The position numbers and the translations under genes were made by a program. Positions 3,490 to 10,516 of a stretch of 10,516 nt of DNA are shown piece after piece; position 1 is the stretch's first letter; every line of letters starts with the position of its first letter. Under the pieces are notes generated by a model. The model was not told where the DNA came from, made no database searches, and saw nothing but the letters and a program-made list of their open reading frames with translations. The DNA is from Planctomycetota bacterium (lineage in GTDB: Bacteria > Planctomycetota > B143-G9). The stretch covers positions 1 to 10,516 of the forward strand of contig QNBY01000020.1 of NCBI GenBank assembly GCA_003644275.1. Direction: 5' to 3'.

Positions 3490-4851
3490 ATGTCCCGCTC
3501 ACACACCGCGAGATTCGCCTTCGTCGCCTGCGCGTTCCTGCTCATGGGGCTTCTGCTTCTCCTCTTCGTCCGCTATCGGGACGCCCTGCGCGGCGGCGCC
3601 GCTCCCGCCCGCATGACGGTGACGGACACCTTCGCCCCCCCCGACGGCTGGACGCTTCCCCCCCTGCTCGTGGTGGAGCCCGGCGGCGTGCTCGTCTTCC
3701 GCCCCGGCCGCGTGAAGGTCCCCGAGCGCGCCGAGATAAGGGTGAAAGGCAGGATATCCTGGCACACCGCCGCCCTCGAGAAGACTTCCTTCGTCCCCCT
3801 CTCCGACTCCGTCTTCTCCCGCCTCTCCATCGCCTTCGAGGGTTCCGGCCGCGTGGCCTGCGCCTCCTTCTCCGGCTTCACCGGCCCCGTCGGCCGCCCC
3901 CGGCTCCTGCTCTCCCTCTCCGCGGCGGGCGACCTGGAGGTGGAGAGCTGCGACTTCGACGGAGTCTCCTCCCCGCCGGGCTCGCCGCTCGTGAGCGCCG
4001 CGAAGAAGCTCCGCATAGTCCGTTGCCGTTACGATTCCGACAACCGCTCCCCCCGCGCCGGAAGGTGCCTCGCCTCCGCGGACGAGGTGAGCGTGGACGG
4101 CCTCGAGCTGAAGCGCCTCACCGGCTTCGACGAGCTCTTCCGCTGCTCCTCGCTCGAGGCGAAGAACCTCTCCGTCCTCGGCGCCGAGCTGGACCGCCTC
4201 GCGCGCTCCGCCGGAAAGTGCGACTACTACGGCCTGTCGCTCGCCGCCGTCTCCTGCCCCGGCCCGCTGAAGCTGGGCGGGGCGGCTTCCCTCCGCGGCT
4301 CTGCCCTCCACTCGGCGGGCGAACTGCCCCTCGCGGCCCGCTCCCTCTCCGTGCAGGACTCCCTTCTCGTCGCCCGCTCGCTTTCACTCGCGGCTTCCCC
4401 TCTCTCGGTGCGGGGCTCGGCCCTCGTCGCTTCGGGCGGGAACCTGGCGCTCGGCGGCGGAGAAGGGCAGGGGGGGCTGGTTGCGTCCGGCGACATTTCC
4501 TGCCGCGCGAGCCTCATCGCGCTTCGGCCGGTGGAGCGCCGCCTGCTGGACGCCTTCGCGGCGGGAACGGCCGAGCTCCCCGAGCTCCCCGGCGGCTCTT
4601 CCTCCTCCGCCTTCTCGGCCTGCTTCTTCCTGCTGGAGCCCTCCCGTCCGCTTCCCTCCTCGCTTTCCTTCTCCGGCTGTTTCGCCCTCTGCGCTCCTCC
4701 TCCCCCGCCCGGCGTCTCCCTCCTTCCCTCCGACGCCGACTCCCTCGCCGCCGCGCTTAAGGCGTCGGCCCCGCCCAACGAGGCCCTCGCCTCGGTGATA
4801 GGGAAGGCGGCGGCCTCCCCCGTCTTCTCCCTCGGTTCCCCCTCCCGGTGA
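3490..4851 (+). CDS. Membrane-anchored protein with predicted parallel beta-helix
   Basis: 453 aa from the ATG at 3490; the in-frame GTG at 3481 would add three residues but overlaps the ribosome binding site. Seen: a short basic N-terminus, one hydrophobic helix at about residues 8-27 (uncleaved signal anchor), then a domain predicted to be periplasmic. Residues 54-85 (VVEPGGVLVFRPGRVKVPERAEIRVKG) resemble the opening coil of right-handed beta-helix proteins. From about 135 to 345 there are repeating short strands separated by small residues (DLEVESCDF, KLRIVRCRY, EVSVDGLEL, SLSVQDSLL, PLSVRGSAL), as in pectate-lyase-like folds. The C-terminal ~100 residues are rich in Ser, Pro and Ala. No catalytic motif is recognised. 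It is the last gene of the operon, 19 bases after endonuclease V. Function unknown; the fold is inferred from sequence pattern alone. Confidence 0.7.
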   Translation: MSRSHTARFAFVACAFLLMGLLLLLFVRYRDALRGGAAPARMTVTDTFAPPDGWTLPPLLVVEPGGVLVFRPGRVKVPERAEIRVKGRISWHTAALEKTSFVPLSDSVFSRLSIAFEGSGRVACASFSGFTGPVGRPRLLLSLSAAGDLEVESCDFDGVSSPPGSPLVSAAKKLRIVRCRYDSDNRSPRAGRCLASADEVSVDGLELKRLTGFDELFRCSSLEAKNLSVLGAELDRLARSAGKCDYYGLSLAAVSCPGPLKLGGAASLRGSALHSAGELPLAARSLSVQDSLLVARSLSLAASPLSVRGSALVASGGNLALGGGEGQGGLVASGDISCRASLIALRPVERRLLDAFAAGTAELPELPGGSSSSAFSACFFLLEPSRPLPSSLSFSGCFALCAPPPPPGVSLLPSDADSLAAALKASAPPNEALASVIGKAAASPVFSLGSPSR

Positions 4852-4885
4852 AAAAAAGAGGGGAAGCGGCGAACCGCTTCCCCTC
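4851..4885 (-). terminator. Intrinsic terminator of the four-helix membrane protein gene
   Basis: A perfect 12-bp stem (4858-4869 with 4874-4885, arm GAGGGGAAGCGG) encloses a 4-base loop that reads UUCG in the - strand transcript. It is followed on that strand by seven U (4857-4851). This lies 24 bases beyond the stop of the - strand gene. On the + strand there is no U-tract after the hairpin, so it should work mainly in the - direction. Its U-tract touches the stop codon of the convergent + strand gene. Confidence 0.9.
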
Positions 4886-4909
4886 GCAGGGCGCTTGCCG
4901 GACGGGGCG

Positions 4910-6064
4910 TCAGTCCTTCTTCTCCTCCTCCCCGCCTTCCTCTTCCTTCTTCTCGCCCTCGTCTTCCTTCTTCTCGCCCTCGTCTTCCTTCTTCTCGGCG
5001 GACTCGGACGGCTTCTCCTCTTCCTTCTCGTCGCCGCTTCCCTCCTTGCGGGCGGGCCTCTGCGGCCTGCTGCGCTGGCGGGCGGCCTTCCTGGCCTCGG
5101 CGAGCGCCTTGCGGGCCTCCAGCTTCCGCCTCTTTATCTCCTCCTTGGAGACATAGCGGCGGTTTATCCACACCGCGAGTATGAGGCCGCTTATCCACAC
5201 CACTATCGAGATGGCCAGCACCAGCGTGTAGTTCTTGGAGACGGCCTTCTTGGCCTTCATGCGCTCGGGCATCTTACTGATGTACACGGGCAGGTCGGAG
5301 GCTATGTCCTTGACGGTGCGCGGCATGCGCTTGTGCTTCTCGGACGGCTTCCAGGTCTCCTTGCCGTTCTGCTTCGCCCACTCGTTGTACTTGGGCGCGA
5401 GCTCGTCCTTCAGCTCCGCCCACTCGTTGTACTCGTCGTAGTACCACTTCTTGTAGCGGTCGATCTCGGCTATCTCTCGAAGCTCCTCGTTGTCGGCCGA
5501 CTTCAGCACCTCTATCTGCCGGTCGCCCGCCGCTCCGCTGCGCACCCACTCGTTGTGTTCCTCGGCCCACGGGTTGTATTCCTGAAGCACCCATTTCTGG
5601 TAGGTGACGGCGCGGTAGTTCCGGTTCAGGTAGGGATAGTAGTTGTAGTCCATTATGTAGTTGTGGGCGAAAGTGGCGACGGCCACGAGCACTATGCCCA
5701 TTATCGCCGTGGAGATCATGGTGGCCTTGCCGCGCGCCTTCCCGGTCGCGAGCCTCCAGCCGAAGCCGAGCGCCATGAACACGAAGAACCCCATGAGCGG
5801 GTTCAGGCGCTCGAATATGTCGTAGTACTTCGCCATGTTCTCGTCCTTGGGGCCGTCGCAATAGACGAGCCAGCCGAGTATGGCGCCCCATATCCCCAGC
5901 GGAACGAGGGCGAAGAGAAGGGAGACGAAGAAGCCGGCCACCCACTTGCCGAACGTCAGGGGCTTACTGGTGTCCTCCTCGGCGACCTGCGTTCCGCCTT
6001 CGGCCTCCGCGGGCTTGGCGGTCTCCTCGTTCGCCAACTTGTCCTTTTCCTTTTCTTCTGCCAC
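4910..6064 (-). CDS. Four-helix membrane protein with aromatic YNxW loop and K/E-rich tail
   Basis: 384 aa. GTG start, fixed by AAGGAG at 6071-6076 with a 6-base spacer. Seen: a charged, acidic N-terminus (1-38); hydrophobic helices at about 40-68, 88-104, 115-134 and 280-300; a hydrophilic segment (135-279) unusually rich in Trp, Tyr and Asn; and a basic then K/E-rich low-complexity tail (301-384). Positive charges in the 105-114 loop and after helix 4 put both termini in the cytoplasm and the 144-residue aromatic loop in the periplasm (positive-inside rule). That loop contains four related motifs: YNPW (163-166), HNEW (170-173), YNEW (212-215) and YNEW (226-229). I do not recognise the family. 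It is monocistronic, with its own candidate promoter and a strong terminator, and no function can be assigned. Confidence 0.8.
   Translation of the reverse strand: MAEEKEKDKLANEETAKPAEAEGGTQVAEEDTSKPLTFGKWVAGFFVSLLFALVPLGIWGAILGWLVYCDGPKDENMAKYYDIFERLNPLMGFFVFMALGFGWRLATGKARGKATMISTAIMGIVLVAVATFAHNYIMDYNYYPYLNRNYRAVTYQKWVLQEYNPWAEEHNEWVRSGAAGDRQIEVLKSADNEELREIAEIDRYKKWYYDEYNEWAELKDELAPKYNEWAKQNGKETWKPSEKHKRMPRTVKDIASDLPVYISKMPERMKAKKAVSKNYTLVLAISIVVWISGLILAVWINRRYVSKEEIKRRKLEARKALAEARKAARQRSRPQRPARKEGSGDEKEEEKPSESAEKKEDEGEKKEDEGEKKEEEGGEEEKKD
4942..4998 (-). repeat. 21-bp tandem repeat coding for KKEDEGE
   Basis: Two full 21-base units (CTTCCTTCTTCTCGCCCTCG plus T on the + strand) at 4942-4962 and 4963-4983, with a third partial copy to about 4998. 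They encode the heptad KKEDEGE in the cytoplasmic tail of the four-helix membrane protein. The unit is a multiple of three, so copy-number changes would keep the frame. Confidence 0.85.
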
Positions 6065-6070
6065 GTCGCA

Positions 6071-6076
6071 CTCCTT
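6071..6076 (-). promoter_or_regulatory. Shine-Dalgarno AAGGAG for the GTG-started membrane protein
   Basis: AAGGAG on the - strand lies 6 bases before the GTG at 6064-6062. It decides the start of a gene that lacks an ATG near this point. Confidence 0.7.
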
Positions 6077-6094
6077 TCCTGACCGAACGCTAAC

Positions 6095-6122
6095 AGGATA
6101 TTGCGATATGAGGCGAAAGCAA
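6095..6122 (-). promoter_or_regulatory. Candidate sigma70-type promoter for the membrane protein gene
   Basis: On the - strand, TTGCTT (6122-6117) and TATCCT (6100-6095) are separated by 16 bases. Each hexamer matches the consensus at four of six positions, so this is only moderate support. It lies immediately after the U-tract of the fecR-type gene's terminator and about 30 bases before the GTG start, which is where a promoter for this isolated gene would be expected. Confidence 0.4.
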
Positions 6123-6123
6123 G

Positions 6124-6147
6124 AAAAAAGCCCCCGGTGACGGGGGC
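6124..6147 (-). terminator. Intrinsic terminator after the FecR-domain gene
   Basis: A 7-bp G+C-only stem (6130-6136 with 6141-6147, arm GCCCCCG) has a 4-base loop and is followed on the - strand by six U (6129-6124). It lies 27 bases past the stop of the FecR-domain gene and closes the two-gene operon. Confidence 0.85.
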
Positions 6148-6174
6148 CGTTTGACGGGCGTCATCCTGCCGCAC

Positions 6175-7236
6175 TCATCCTTGAGGGGGAGGGGGAGGGG
6201 GAGGAGGATCGGGCAGGGTCTCCGGCTCGGGAGGTCCGGGCTCTCCGCCACCACCGCCGCCGGTCTCCCCGCCGGGCTCGGGCGCGATGGCGGGCTCCAC
6301 GTTGGAGGTGGGATCGGGAACGTCGCTCGAATCCTGCGTGGCGCGCGTCTGGTCCATCTTGTCCTCGACATCCTTTCCGACGGTCTCCTCGCCGACCTCC
6401 GGCTCCGCGCCGGGCATCTCCATCGAGGGCTTCGCCGCGTAGCGCGCCGGGTTGAAGTCCGGGGAGAAGGAATGCGAGCCCATGCTCTCCTCCACGGGGG
6501 CGTCCGCCTTGAACATGGTGCCGAACCCGTTCATCCCTATCTCGAGCAGCCTCTTGCGGCCTACGGTGCGGATCTCGCCCTTCACCAGGTCCTTCACCCA
6601 CACGCGCCCGCTCTTGACGTACACGAAGGTCTTGGTGGGCGTTACCGCCACGATGAACTCGGTGCCGCGCACGCCGGCTATCGCGGTGGGGGTCTTCACC
6701 TGATAGTTGGAGCGGGTCACCCGGTAGGAACGGCCGCGGGCGCGGGCGCGGGCCCTGTCGCGCCTCTCCTTCCACCCGGCCTTCCGGCCGTCCTTCACGT
6801 TGGAGCCCAGCTTCCCTTCCTTCAACTCGAGCTGCGTGGTGATGTCCCCGCTGGGCTCGACGCGCCTCGCCTTTATCGTCAGCTTCGCGTTCTCGCTCAG
6901 CGTGAGCACCGTGGGGTTCTTCTCTCCGTCCGCCGGTTTGCCCGGCACGTTGAAGAGGGTTATCTCCATGTAACTCTTGGCGGCGACCTCTATCCGGTCG
7001 CCCTCGCGGACCACGAAGCCCACGGCGGCCGGGAACTTGTCCTCCCCGCGGAAGATCTCGGCCGTCCCCTCCAGCTTCGTCACCTTGCCGGCCTCCTGCG
7101 GCTGCTTCGCCTCAGCCGCGGCCTCCGCCTTCTTGGCCGTGTCCAACTCCGCCCTTTTCTTGCCCGCGGCCTCGCCCCAGGCGGACGCCTGAAAGGCGAA
7201 CAGCACGAGCGCGATCAGTATGGCCGCTCTCTTCAT
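6175..7236 (-). CDS. FecR-domain periplasmic protein
   Basis: 353 aa. The ATG at 7236 is supported by GGGGAG 6 bases upstream. Signal peptide at 1-19, cleavage likely after ASA, so the protein is exported. A K/A-rich helical segment (about 25-48) precedes a FecR domain at about 50-215. The diagnostic block is VKTPTAIAGVRGTEFIVAV (180-198), followed by a YVKSGRVWV strand. In FecR proteins this region forms the beta-rich periplasmic domain, but here there is no N-terminal anti-sigma helix bundle and no membrane anchor, so it is not a classical iron-dicitrate regulator. Odd features: an Arg-Ala run (RARARARGR, 161-169) inside the domain, and a C-terminal third rich in Pro, Gly and Glu that ends in eight consecutive prolines. 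Sixteen bases separate it from the outer-membrane barrel gene upstream, so the two form an operon. Domain call is firm; the partner is inferred. Confidence 0.9.
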   Translation of the reverse strand: MKRAAILIALVLFAFQASAWGEAAGKKRAELDTAKKAEAAAEAKQPQEAGKVTKLEGTAEIFRGEDKFPAAVGFVVREGDRIEVAAKSYMEITLFNVPGKPADGEKNPTVLTLSENAKLTIKARRVEPSGDITTQLELKEGKLGSNVKDGRKAGWKERRDRARARARGRSYRVTRSNYQVKTPTAIAGVRGTEFIVAVTPTKTFVYVKSGRVWVKDLVKGEIRTVGRKRLLEIGMNGFGTMFKADAPVEESMGSHSFSPDFNPARYAAKPSMEMPGAEPEVGEETVGKDVEDKMDQTRATQDSSDVPDPTSNVEPAIAPEPGGETGGGGGGEPGPPEPETLPDPPPPPPPPQG

Positions 7237-7252
7237 CTGTCTCTCCCCTCGA

Positions 7253-8251
7253 TCAATACCGCCACTCGATGCCGAACGTGATGATGTTCCTCGAGTAGTC
7301 GTAATTCGTCTCGTTGGAGTTGTTCTCTACGTAAGTGTACCTCGCAAAAGCGGAAATGCCGTGCCCGAAAGGCCGCCGCAACACCGCGTTGAAGATGGTG
7401 CGCTTGTCCACCCGCGATACGTGCGTGGTGGGATTCTCCAGCCTGTAGTCGCGGTAGTGGTAGCTCGCCGACAGCTCGCCCTCCACCTCCCACAGAAGTT
7501 TCGTGTGGAATCCCAGGAACACCTTCGGCCCCGCGTAGGACACGTACTGCTCGTCCGCCTTCAGGTAGTTGTAACTCACGTACCCCTTGAACCAGGTGTC
7601 CCGCTTGAGAAGGTACGTCTCCGAGAAGCGCACGAGGTAATCCACCGCGTCGTACATGTCGTCGCTCGCCAGCTTGTAGTTCAGCACCTCGGCGGAGAGC
7701 GTCACCGAGCCCAGCCACTTGTTGCTCTGCTCGTAGTAGAACGTGGGGGAGAACCGCACGGTGTTCAGGTAGGTGGTGTTGTCCAGAAGATACATGTTGG
7801 CCGAGAGCGGGAAGTACAGGTAGCTCGGCCGCTTGCTCCAGAACCCGAACAGAAGCAGCGAGTGCGTCTGTATCTCCATGTACTCCACGTCCGAGTGCGC
7901 CGCGTTGTAGAAGTCGTACTGCGCCCCGAGCTTCCAGTTCCCCTTCTTGAAGGGCGTGGCCCGGAGCGTGACCGTCGTCACCAGCTTGTCCGTGCCGTAG
8001 TCGGGAACGAGATCCTCGTCCTCGTTCAGCAGCACCACGTTGTCGTCGTACTGCCAGTAGAGCCCCACCTTTATCTCCAGCCAGTCGTACTTCTTCTCAT
8101 CCTTCGACACCTTGGGCGGAGCCACTTTCTCCGGCTTCTGCTTTATGTCCTTCGTGCCCTCCGGATTGGGAGCTGCGAAGGCGGCCGAACCCGCGAAAAG
8201 GAAGACGCCCGCGACGGCGAGCACGAAGAACGCTCTCAAAACGGACTTCAT
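7253..8251 (-). CDS. Outer-membrane beta-barrel protein
   Basis: 332 aa. The ATG at 8251 is preceded by AAGGAGAGGG with a suitable spacer. Signal peptide at 1-26 (cleavage after AFA), then a proline/lysine-rich linker (27-53) and a series of about 10-residue amphipathic strands rich in Tyr, Trp and Phe (for example WLEIKVGLYWQYDDNV, VTLRATPFKKG, HSLLLFGFW). The chain ends ITFGIEWRY; a C-terminal aromatic residue after alternating hydrophobics is the usual signal recognised by the BAM complex. The early YDDNV motif is common in outer-membrane barrels of unknown cargo. I count roughly 12-14 possible strands by eye. It is the first gene of a two-gene operon with the FecR-domain gene and is divergent from the CHASE2 cyclase. 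Outer-membrane location is well supported; channel, transporter or structural role is unknown. Confidence 0.85.
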   Translation of the reverse strand: MKSVLRAFFVLAVAGVFLFAGSAAFAAPNPEGTKDIKQKPEKVAPPKVSKDEKKYDWLEIKVGLYWQYDDNVVLLNEDEDLVPDYGTDKLVTTVTLRATPFKKGNWKLGAQYDFYNAAHSDVEYMEIQTHSLLLFGFWSKRPSYLYFPLSANMYLLDNTTYLNTVRFSPTFYYEQSNKWLGSVTLSAEVLNYKLASDDMYDAVDYLVRFSETYLLKRDTWFKGYVSYNYLKADEQYVSYAGPKVFLGFHTKLLWEVEGELSASYHYRDYRLENPTTHVSRVDKRTIFNAVLRRPFGHGISAFARYTYVENNSNETNYDYSRNIITFGIEWRY

Positions 8252-8283
8252 GATAGTTCCCTCTCCTTGCCTTTGCTCCCGTT

Positions 8284-8312
8284 ATTCTACAGGCGCAAAA
8301 AAAGCGTGTCAA
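8284..8312 (-). promoter_or_regulatory. Near-consensus sigma70-type promoter of the barrel-fecR operon
   Basis: On the - strand, a perfect -35 TTGACA (8312-8307) and a -10 TAGAAT (8289-8284, five of six) are separated by exactly 17 bases. Transcription should start near 8277, giving a leader of about 26 bases that contains the Shine-Dalgarno sequence of the barrel gene. Confidence 0.85.
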
Positions 8313-8332
8313 GAAACTCGCGCCGTTTGACA
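8307..8332. promoter_or_regulatory. Back-to-back -35 elements with shared 14-base centre
   Basis: The two -35 hexamers form TGTCAA-N14-TTGACA. The 14-base centre (8313-8326) is the only DNA between them, and AAAC (8314-8317) and GTTT (8325-8328) form a smaller inverted repeat about 8321. The arrangement would let one factor bound here affect both promoters. No specific operator is recognised. Confidence 0.45.
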
Positions 8333-8355
8333 GCCCGCCGCCGGGACACTACAAT
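8327..8355 (+). promoter_or_regulatory. Near-consensus sigma70-type promoter of the CHASE2 cyclase
   Basis: A perfect -35 TTGACA (8327-8332) and a -10 TACAAT (8350-8355, five of six) are separated by exactly 17 bases. The start point is expected at about 8361-8363, only 3-5 bases before the ATG at 8366, so the transcript should be leaderless or nearly so. Confidence 0.85.
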
Positions 8356-8365
8356 TGCCCCACGC

Positions 8366-10516
8366 ATGAGCGTCTTCCTACGCCGCCTCCTCATCGCCCT
8401 CGTCATCGGCCTCCTCGGAGCCCTCTCCTTCGGGGGGCTCGCCATGGCGCGCATCCCCTTCTTCGAGCGCTTCGAGAACGCCTCCTACGACATGCGCATG
8501 TCGCTGCGCGCCTCGCTGCGGCCGGGAAGCGTGGAGCAGTGGGACAGCGTCGTCTTCGTGGACATAGACGACTACTCCCTCTCCGAGATGACCTTCCCCG
8601 TCCCCCGCGACATGTACGCCGTGGTCCTCGACGCCCTGCGCGAGGCCGGCGCGAAGGCGATAGGCTTCGATATCCTCTTCGCCGAACGCGCCACCCGCCG
8701 CCTCACCCAGGCGGACTGGGACGACCTGCACTATTCCGTCTACGAGGTCTTCGAGAAGGGCGGCAAGCCCGACCGCCTCGAGAACGAGATACACGCCGCC
8801 ATAGACCGCATCCGCTCCCAGGACCCCGACTTCTCCGTCTGCTCCGCCGCCTCCGCGCACGGCCACGTCTATTTCCCCACCGCCTTCACCAACGACCCCG
8901 GCGTCCCCACCTGGCGGGCCTACCGCGCCGAGCTCGAACGCCTCGAGAAGAGCGGCGTCGTCTCCCGCCTCGTCGCCCTATTCGGCAGGTACAAAGACGA
9001 GTTCGCCTCCCTCTGGTTCTCCCGGACCTCCTATTCCGCGAGGGCCCGCGTCGTCCGCCGCCTCCTCGCCCGCGCCCGCGACAAGGCGCTCTCCAAGCAA
9101 GTCCTCCTCCCGAGCGGCGACGTGGCGCCCCTCGTCCTCGCCCGCATGGCCATGGAGATAGACCGCCGCGCCCGCGACCTCCTCGCCTACCAGGTGGCCT
9201 CCTCCCCCGCCGAGTTCGCCCGCTACTACAACACCTTCCCCGAGGACCGCAGGGCCGTGGACGAACGCCTCATGCGCGAGCTGCGCTTCAACGAGGCCGA
9301 GCTCCGCAACGCCGCCCGCGGCATATTCCAGAACATGATCTTCCGCGAGATAGTCGCCGCCTGGGAGAAGGCCCGCCGCTCCGACCCCTCCGCCCGCCTC
9401 ACCGACGTCTGCCGCTCCTGGTTCCGAAACAGCCTCTCCCGCCGCTTCGACAACATCGTCTTCGAGGACGACGACATCTTCTCCCGCCCCTTCGCCCCCG
9501 CCGAGCGCATGTTGCGCGAATACCTCCTCTTCCTCGGAGGAATGGAGCGCCCCGCCCTCGTCTCGGACCTCCCCTTCAGCTACGACGCCATCCCCCCGCT
9601 GCTCTGCTACCTCGAATCCTCCCCCCGCCCCACCTACATCCAGATAATCCCCGACGAGGACGGCGTGGTCCGCCACTGGATCCCCCTTCACGCCTATTCC
9701 GGCCGCATCCCCCGGTTCGAGGGCCGCGCCCGCGTCTATCCCCTCATGTCCTTCCAGCTCGTCCTCGACTACCTCGGCGTCCGCCTCGAGGACGTCCGCG
9801 TCCGCCCCGGCCACTCCATCACCGTCCCCGTCCCCGGCGGCGAGCCCTACGTCATCCCCATGGACGATTCCTTCCGCGTCAACCTCAACTGGGTGAACGG
9901 CGACTTCCTCGAATCCTTCTCCCACATCTCCTTCCTGGAGATATACAACAACTACCTCACCTGGCTCGAGCAAGAGCGTAACGGCGAGACCTCGGAGGGC
10001 GACTACCTGGCCGACAGGCTCCGCCCCGCCGTGCAGGGCAAGATAGTGCTCGTCGGCCTCACCGCCACGGGAACGCACGACTACAACCCCATCCCGCTCA
10101 GCCCCCGCTACCCCATGGTGGGCGCGCACGCCAACTTCATCTCCAACTTCTTCACCCGCCGCTTCATCAGGAAGGTCTCGCCGGACGCCGACTTCCTCCT
10201 CACCTTCTCCGTCCTCCTCTTCCTCTGCCTCGTCCTGCCGCTGCTGCCCTACGCGCTGAGCTTCGTCTTCTTCCTCCTCGTCCTGGCGGGCTGGGCCGCC
10301 GCCTCCTGGTTCCTCCTGCTCGACGACGTTTGGGTGAACTCCTTCTACACCCTCGCGGGCGGCGTCACGTGCGGCATCGCCATGTTCGCCGCGAAGTACA
10401 TCGTCGAGTCCCGCTCCCGCGCGCGCCTGAAGAAGCTCTTCTCCTACTACCTCTCCCCCAAGCTCGTGGACGACATGGCCGATAAGCTCACCGAGGTGAA
10501 GCTCGGCGGCGATAAG
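8366..10516 (+). CDS. CHASE2-domain transmembrane adenylate/guanylate cyclase, 3' end outside window
   Basis: 717 codons are present with no stop, so the gene runs off the right edge. Seen: one N-terminal membrane helix (about 6-28), a long periplasmic CHASE2 sensor, three membrane helices (about 609-682), then the lead-in of a class III nucleotide cyclase (LKKLFSYYLSPKLVDDM, 688-704, then KLGGDK). CHASE2 marks are VVFVDIDDYSL (62-72), AKAIGFDILFAE (96-107), DEDGVVRHWIPL (430-441) and KIVLVGLTATGTHDYNPIPL (559-578). Family members use the periplasmic domain to control cAMP/cGMP synthesis in the cytoplasm. The metal-binding Asp residues lie beyond the window, so activity cannot be judged. Between the two CHASE2 halves is an extra, mostly helical, R/E-rich block of about 215 residues (about 176-390). 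The ATG at 8366 has no ribosome binding site but keeps the first membrane helix. It is divergent from the barrel-fecR operon. Confidence 0.92.
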   Translation, partial: MSVFLRRLLIALVIGLLGALSFGGLAMARIPFFERFENASYDMRMSLRASLRPGSVEQWDSVVFVDIDDYSLSEMTFPVPRDMYAVVLDALREAGAKAIGFDILFAERATRRLTQADWDDLHYSVYEVFEKGGKPDRLENEIHAAIDRIRSQDPDFSVCSAASAHGHVYFPTAFTNDPGVPTWRAYRAELERLEKSGVVSRLVALFGRYKDEFASLWFSRTSYSARARVVRRLLARARDKALSKQVLLPSGDVAPLVLARMAMEIDRRARDLLAYQVASSPAEFARYYNTFPEDRRAVDERLMRELRFNEAELRNAARGIFQNMIFREIVAAWEKARRSDPSARLTDVCRSWFRNSLSRRFDNIVFEDDDIFSRPFAPAERMLREYLLFLGGMERPALVSDLPFSYDAIPPLLCYLESSPRPTYIQIIPDEDGVVRHWIPLHAYSGRIPRFEGRARVYPLMSFQLVLDYLGVRLEDVRVRPGHSITVPVPGGEPYVIPMDDSFRVNLNWVNGDFLESFSHISFLEIYNNYLTWLEQERNGETSEGDYLADRLRPAVQGKIVLVGLTATGTHDYNPIPLSPRYPMVGAHANFISNFFTRRFIRKVSPDADFLLTFSVLLFLCLVLPLLPYALSFVFFLLVLAGWAAASWFLLLDDVWVNSFYTLAGGVTCGIAMFAAKYIVESRSRARLKKLFSYYLSPKLVDDMADKLTEVKLGGDK

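Follow-up and report, generated by a model that had tools for sequence, protein, structure and literature searches.

A barrel, FecR and CHASE2 gene trio on a Planctomycetota contig as a candidate split variant of the NsrA-CyaK relay

The window analysed here is a stretch of 10,516 nucleotides that makes up one entire contig (C20; QNBY01000020.1) of a metagenome-assembled Planctomycetota genome (GCA_003644275.1; 1.67 Mb in 324 contigs, 77% complete). Three genes in its last part are the subject of this study. On the minus strand, an exported outer-membrane β-barrel protein of 332 amino acids (7253..8251; assigned from the open reading frame (ORF), Pfam and a structure model) is encoded 16 bp ahead of an exported FecR-domain protein of 353 amino acids (6175..7236), whose gene comes second in this transcription unit. 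On the plus strand, a CHASE2 sensor protein recognised by Pfam is visible for 717 amino acids before the contig end truncates its gene (8366..10516). The barrel and CHASE2 genes are 114 bp apart, and this gap holds two promoter-like sites facing away from each other, TTGACA-17-TAGAAT ahead of the barrel-FecR unit (8284..8312, minus strand) and TTGACA-17-TACAAT ahead of the CHASE2 gene (8327..8355, plus strand). Each shares 11 of 12 positions with the sigma-70 consensus at a spacing of 17 bp, and no other such site was found in the 2451 bp scanned, where 0.2 were expected. The initial annotation had described an operon of an exported barrel and an exported FecR protein facing the CHASE2 gene across shared regulatory DNA, an arrangement that the gene positions and the divergent sites confirm. 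Because just 10 bases separate the -10 hexamer from the ATG at 8366, the CHASE2 message may be nearly leaderless. A terminator-like stem-loop followed by a T-run lies downstream of the FecR gene (6129..6148, minus strand), and Rfam returned no match at gathering scores.

The structure model of the barrel has 14 strands and resembles a CymA/OmpG-like pore. The mature protein starts with a short N-terminal segment bearing a conserved NP, and conservation of the barrel peaks in the outer half of its lumen. Pfam finds no TPR, plug or STN domain in it and gives a partial match to SlipAM (residues 133-331; 23.4 bits for a cut-off of 22). A sequence search of PDB with the barrel alignment had no match at E 1. 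Sequence searches found the barrel in 3 of 59 genomes (its own and 58 of the same phylum), strongly in its own genome only, and in 19 of 392 genomes of the phylum; a scan of genome contigs with the barrel alignment gave 57 pattern matches, none confirmed as a relative by tblastn.

The model of the FecR protein corresponds to the N-terminal part of the PupR periplasmic fold and matches PupR and BDI_1681, with an alignment spanning residues 111-249 of PupR only. Its residues 269-336 (6229..6432, minus strand), where any STN-like C-terminal subdomain would lie, are modelled with low confidence and presumably form a disordered linker. FecR is the sole Pfam family above cut-off, and a sequence search of PDB with the FecR protein returned FtsB alone (E 0.89). 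The chain ends with the proline motif LPDPPPPPPPP (residues 341-351; 6184..6216, minus strand). Family alignment shows the LPxPPxPP tail in all nine aligned members, three of which have the exact LPDPPPPPP. By eye, the N-terminus is a signal peptide and the cytoplasmic anti-sigma part is missing.

The CHASE2 match of the third protein (PF05226) scores 148 bits. Hydropathy places about 590 residues in the periplasm, between the first transmembrane segment and a later transmembrane cluster (8426..10192, plus strand). The contig stops before any catalytic domain. The initial annotation had named a CHASE2 nucleotide cyclase: the CHASE2 domain stands, and the class III cyclase domain, being outside the window, is inferred from protein P0001, a 978-residue protein with CHASE2 and Guanylate_cyc domains that is 97% identical to the window protein across the 717 residues in common. 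P0002, at 47% identity, likewise has both domains, and the window's own genome, 77% complete, has no Guanylate_cyc match. In an alignment of 12 CHASE2 cyclases D726, D770, N847 and R851 are invariant and K766 is nearly so. Because these residues agree with those used for catalysis by class III cyclases, the product of the predicted enzyme is probably cyclic AMP (cAMP). A PDB sequence search with the CHASE2-cyclases gave 64 matches; the 60 listed all fall on the cyclase and transmembrane regions (profile positions of at least 484), and none of these 60 covers CHASE2.

The neighbourhoods of CHASE2 cyclases were surveyed in two sets of loci, designated by L numbers. A search of 392 genomes of the phylum found CHASE2 in 150, from which 61 stretches were taken (L105, L108-L147, L148-L167), mostly from the top of the list and with some genomes used twice; the 55 with one gene matching both the CHASE2 and cyclase profiles were kept. 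The named set came from a profile search of genome contigs with alignment A3 and comprises the best 80 of 573 loci, 79 of them with CHASE2 and cyclase. FecR was detected with a profile built up from three seeds, and genes within three of the CHASE2 cyclase were counted as near. FecR is near in 12 of the 55 phylum loci and in 29 of the 79 named loci. Gene by gene, it is found in 31/403 near versus 1/462 far genes of the named set (p 5e-10) and in 12/287 versus 1/277 of the phylum set (p 0.003). By record title, the 29 named loci with FecR belong to Spirochaetota, Verrucomicrobiota, Pseudomonadota, Kiritimatiellota, Lentisphaerota, Bdellovibrionota, Ignavibacteriota, Calditrichota, Fidelibacterota/Marinimicrobia and Deltaproteobacteria including SAR324, together with one 'bacterium' and one Woesearchaeota that is probably a binning error. 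The spread is nine NCBI phyla plus 'Deltaproteobacteria'. Gene order varies: the genes can be co-directional or divergent, with FecR ahead of or behind the cyclase. Four phylum loci scored as having FecR are atypical: L123 has a partial FecR domain, L130 and L155 have FGE-sulfatase fusions, and in L150 FecR is about 5 kb away. L193, whose FecR ORF is four genes off, was scored as lacking FecR. The adjacency of FecR and CHASE2 in diverse bacteria, mentioned in the initial annotation, is thus widespread, though most loci have no FecR. A neighbourhood confined to close relatives had been named there as part of what would refute the proposal; the neighbourhood is kept well beyond them.

The CHASE2 periplasmic loop is longer where FecR adjoins (median 485, n=14, a set that takes in the window, L086, L087 and L107) than where it does not (326, n=50; p 0.003), after 6 of 70 ORFs were left out as fragmentary, duplicated or misread, two of them (L111, L155) with FecR neighbours. 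Such longer loops fit a docking surface in CHASE2.

Some loci have peculiarities of their own. In two genomes, FecR is fused to an FGE-sulfatase domain next to the CHASE2 cyclase (L130:7479-9248, minus strand, and L155:6318-7922, plus strand). In two Verrucomicrobia-type loci, a second short FecR-like ORF lies right behind the cyclase with the large FecR protein on the opposite side (L183:8914-9696 and L192:9746-10492, both plus strand). L143 has a tandem pair of CHASE2 cyclase genes with a 34-base overlap (3616-8699, minus strand).

Complete sets of barrel, FecR and CHASE2 other than that of the window come from distant members of the phylum. The barrel search led to L086, where barrel, FecR and CHASE2/cyclase genes are co-directional, and to L087. 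Among loci selected by CHASE2, six trios have Alginate_exp barrels (L126, L135, L139, L145, L146 and L160; 45-69 bits), and L142 encodes a FecR-TPR-barrel fusion next to the cyclase. Since the barrel type differs among trios, the barrels look exchangeable, with FecR and CHASE2 as the constant pair. A rough heuristic, combining a signal peptide and a C-terminal pattern, found barrels in 6 of 12 phylum loci with FecR versus 1 of 43 without (p 2e-4), and in 13 of 29 versus 7 of 50 named loci (p 0.003). The barrel proposed in the initial annotation as part of the neighbourhood is therefore commoner beside FecR in both data sets. In the named set barrels are also enriched near CHASE2 as such (21/403 near versus 2/462 far, p 7e-6). 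The heuristic missed barrels that Pfam found in L237 and L242 (SlipAM) and L145 (Alginate_exp); its hits in L174, which resembles a DEAD-box helicase, and L247 (263 amino acids) are doubtful, and those in L172, L183, L188, L193, L199, L201, L203 and L222 have no Pfam match at E 0.01. Barrel-FecR pairs on stretches from which CHASE2 is absent are found in L088, L090, where a DUF748/AsmA-like gene follows (match below cut-off), and L091, whose contig stops within the FecR gene. In close relatives the parts seem to have stayed together: barrel P0019 (Kow00107_06000) and FecR P0024 (Kow00107_05990) have neighbouring locus tags, and a shared contig is deduced for barrel P0018 and FecR P0025 (16794 is the largest contig for both) and for CHASE2 P0002 and FecR P0023 (290816 is the largest contig for both).

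In the plant symbiont Sinorhizobium meliloti 1021 (L107), an ORF with FecR (57.2 bits) and TPR matches overlaps the CyaK ORF by one base. We take it to be NsrA from its length and its position ahead of cyaK, the L107 record being unannotated and cyaK being annotated in L106. In strain R11 (L106:3386-6936, plus strand) the frame ahead of cyaK is in separate pieces, unlike in 1021, owing to mutation or sequencing error. According to two reports, NsrA is an outer-membrane β-barrel protein needed for signal 1 via CyaK in S. meliloti, and is genetically upstream of this CHASE2 cyclase (PMC7529298, PMC13001267); receptor and adenylate cyclase act in controlling secondary infection. Its barrel portion is taken from PMC7529298, Pfam having given no barrel family for the L107 ORF. 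An outer-membrane barrel, a FecR domain and a CHASE2 class III cyclase, deduced via P0001 for the window, are thus encoded side by side in both systems. They differ in build: FecR, TPR and barrel form one 1219-residue chain co-directional with cyaK in S. meliloti (the L142 fusion likewise joins FecR, TPR and barrel), whereas in the window FecR and a small 14-strand pore are encoded divergently from the cyclase by separate genes, with no TPR match in either, which is why we speak of a split variant and not of NsrA itself. Related arrangements are described elsewhere. In Campylobacterota, a CHASE2 adenylate cyclase lies beside a FecR-domain outer-membrane protein and the two are proposed to act in one pathway; a phosphodiesterase and a TPR protein, both unseen in the window, are further members of that cluster (PMC9239204). 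The BiofilmReg operon of Burkholderia places an exported FecR-domain protein beside a CHASE2 sensor, but it has a histidine kinase output and a LysM domain on the FecR protein, and the available text describes no barrel (PMC5192318). In Magnetospirillum, the MtxA gene precedes a CHASE2 cyclase gene (PMC4439547). A barrel protein upstream of a CHASE2 cyclase (NsrA-CyaK) and FecR beside CHASE2 in Campylobacterota and Burkholderiales are thus already known. In the literature searched, largely without subscription papers, no description was found of a barrel gene and a distinct FecR gene accompanying a CHASE2 cyclase in this lineage, or of a Slam-FecR-CHASE2 link.

Since the window holds the parts of NsrA-CyaK, minus TPR, in three chains, a relay from barrel through FecR to CHASE2 is the economical reading, and we favour, as probable, the hypothesis that the trio represents an NsrA-CyaK-type relay in a split variant with divergent transcription. 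The 14-strand barrel would meet a signal or stress in the outer membrane. Its state would be passed to the FecR protein, whose periplasmic β-domain, long flexible linker and conserved proline-rich end would allow it to dock on or in the barrel. The FecR domain would then contact the large periplasmic CHASE2 domain of the inner-membrane class III cyclase and alter its output, most likely cAMP. The genes, folds, export signals read by eye, promoter-like sites and conserved neighbourhood that enter this scheme are observed or predicted; we infer the contact, its direction, the signal and the product.

Several observations weigh against such a relay. FecR is not obligatory beside CHASE2 cyclases, because 43 of 55 phylum loci and 50 of 79 named loci have none within three genes, and among loci with FecR the heuristic finds no barrel in 6 of the 12 from the phylum set and 16 of the 29 from the named set. 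Phylum-set barrels are not significantly commoner near CHASE2 (6/287 near versus 3/277 far, p 0.50). Among the 19 stretches with barrel-alignment matches other than the window, 14 have neither FecR nor CHASE2 by the profiles used, three have FecR only and two have both. In the barrel, no domain for periplasmic signalling is recognisable, and the window's own genome, at 77% completeness, gives no cNMP-binding (CRP-type) match. Long CHASE2 loops without FecR in L125, L140, L141, L152 and others weaken the loop-length association. The cyclases in alignment A3 included ones that have a FecR neighbour, a possible bias of the named set towards loci of this kind, and the census p values take no account of common ancestry, with some genomes contributing two stretches.

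Part of this evidence suits other explanations. The barrel and FecR genes could be targets of a regulon of the cyclase, forming a co-regulated envelope module on its output side and not upstream of CHASE2. Divergent shared control DNA suits feedback as well as relay, yet a single chain next to CyaK (L107) and another next to the cyclase of L142 join FecR and TPR with a barrel portion (the barrel being known from PMC7529298 for NsrA and from Pfam for L142), NsrA is placed genetically upstream of CyaK, and varying gene orders are easier to reconcile with a common pathway than with a single common promoter, so that we consider this explanation unlikely. An unrelated porin could also have come by chance to lie next to a FecR-CHASE2 pair, as the unconserved barrel type across trios, the missing enrichment of phylum-set barrels near CHASE2 as such and the 14 of 19 stretches where a relative of the window barrel has neither partner by the profiles used would allow. 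The higher frequency of barrels in loci with FecR than without, in two data sets, and the natural FecR-barrel fusions beside CHASE2 cyclases make such a coincidence highly improbable. As for classical cell-surface signalling, in which the FecR protein would serve as anti-sigma factor under the control of a TonB-dependent transducer, the likeness to FecIRA and PupBR lies in the FecR domain and in its fold match to PupR and BDI_1681. The window differs from these systems in having a signal peptide, by eye, in place of the N-terminal cytoplasmic anti-sigma part, no Sigma70_r4_2 match on C20 (six are found elsewhere) and a 14-stranded barrel without STN or plug match; the incomplete genome yields no TonB-receptor Plug match either. 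FecI-FecR-FecA type signalling, for want of an anti-sigma part, a sigma match on the contig and a TonB transducer in what was found, is rejected as next to impossible, in agreement with the view of the initial annotation that the FecR protein does not have the classical anti-sigma part.

A different role for the barrel is suggested by secretion systems. It could be a conduit or pore for the FecR protein, similar to the surface lipoprotein assembly modifier (Slam; type 11 secretion), with the FecR knob in the periplasm, the tail in the barrel or at the surface, and CHASE2 reading whether the knob is held or free. The SlipAM cut-off is reached, narrowly in the window, by the barrels of the window, L086, L087, L088, L091, L237, L239 and L242. 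In L087 (10480-12747 and 12950-14353, minus strand), the FecR protein carries a TbpB_B_D domain at its C-terminus (34.9 bits, cut-off 26) and lies with a TPR-SlipAM barrel beside a CHASE2 cyclase, an arrangement that resembles a secretion pair wired to a cyclase. TbpB-type domains occur in Slam cargo, and a TPR-SlipAM barrel next to a TbpB-type protein is what an exporter with its cargo would be expected to look like. Among five FecR proteins compared, the LapA retention module is matched below its cut-off of 50 by the FecR domains of L087 (32.3 bits), L237 (22.0) and L242 (28.9), each of which adjoins a SlipAM barrel, and is not matched by the window FecR protein or NsrA. FecR also lies upstream of Ig/cadherin-type repeats in L216 and L247, the latter with an RTX repeat too. 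Taken together, the L087 TbpB tail, the sub-cut-off LapA matches and these repeat architectures suggest that in the periplasm FecR may act as the stopper of a chain entering or crossing the outer membrane, with CHASE2 as its reader. The window differs from Slam pairs in that its barrel has no TPR and its FecR protein no TbpB domain; its own support for threading is limited to the marginal SlipAM match, the proline end conserved in all nine members and the conserved outer lumen. When the L087 tail was used as query for further TbpB-like FecR tails, it found itself alone, and no common tail domain emerged. In the accessible literature, no text joins 'surface lipoprotein assembly modifier' and FecR, and TbpB, Slam and FecR come together in one paper, titled on a siderophore. 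We judge a Slam-like conduit improbable in the window. For FecR domains beside CHASE2 cyclases more broadly, it is doubtful, if somewhat less so, that they act as periplasmic knobs retaining a tail that is threaded into, or exported through, the adjacent barrel, CHASE2 sensing whether the knob is held at the outer membrane or released. In the window the thread would be the flexible FecR tail with its LPxPPxPP end inside the 14-strand barrel, and the cell would turn the state of a surface thread into cAMP.

The rest of the window carries first, on the plus strand, genes for a HEAT-repeat protein, a SnoaL-like protein, endonuclease V and one protein without Pfam match. Next, on the minus strand and before the FecR and barrel genes, comes a membrane protein (4910-6064) with no Pfam family above cut-off, whose C-terminus is a run of Lys/Glu-rich repeats.

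The split NsrA-CyaK-type relay that we favour belongs to a recurrent set found in several phyla, in which exchangeable barrels accompany a constant FecR-CHASE2 pair, pointing to FecR as a direct input of CHASE2. This role becomes testable with pairs from ordinary bacteria. If true, it would generalise NsrA-CyaK from one symbiosis to a widespread route from the cell surface to a cyclic nucleotide, one that would work without TonB transducer, sigma factor or two-component kinase.

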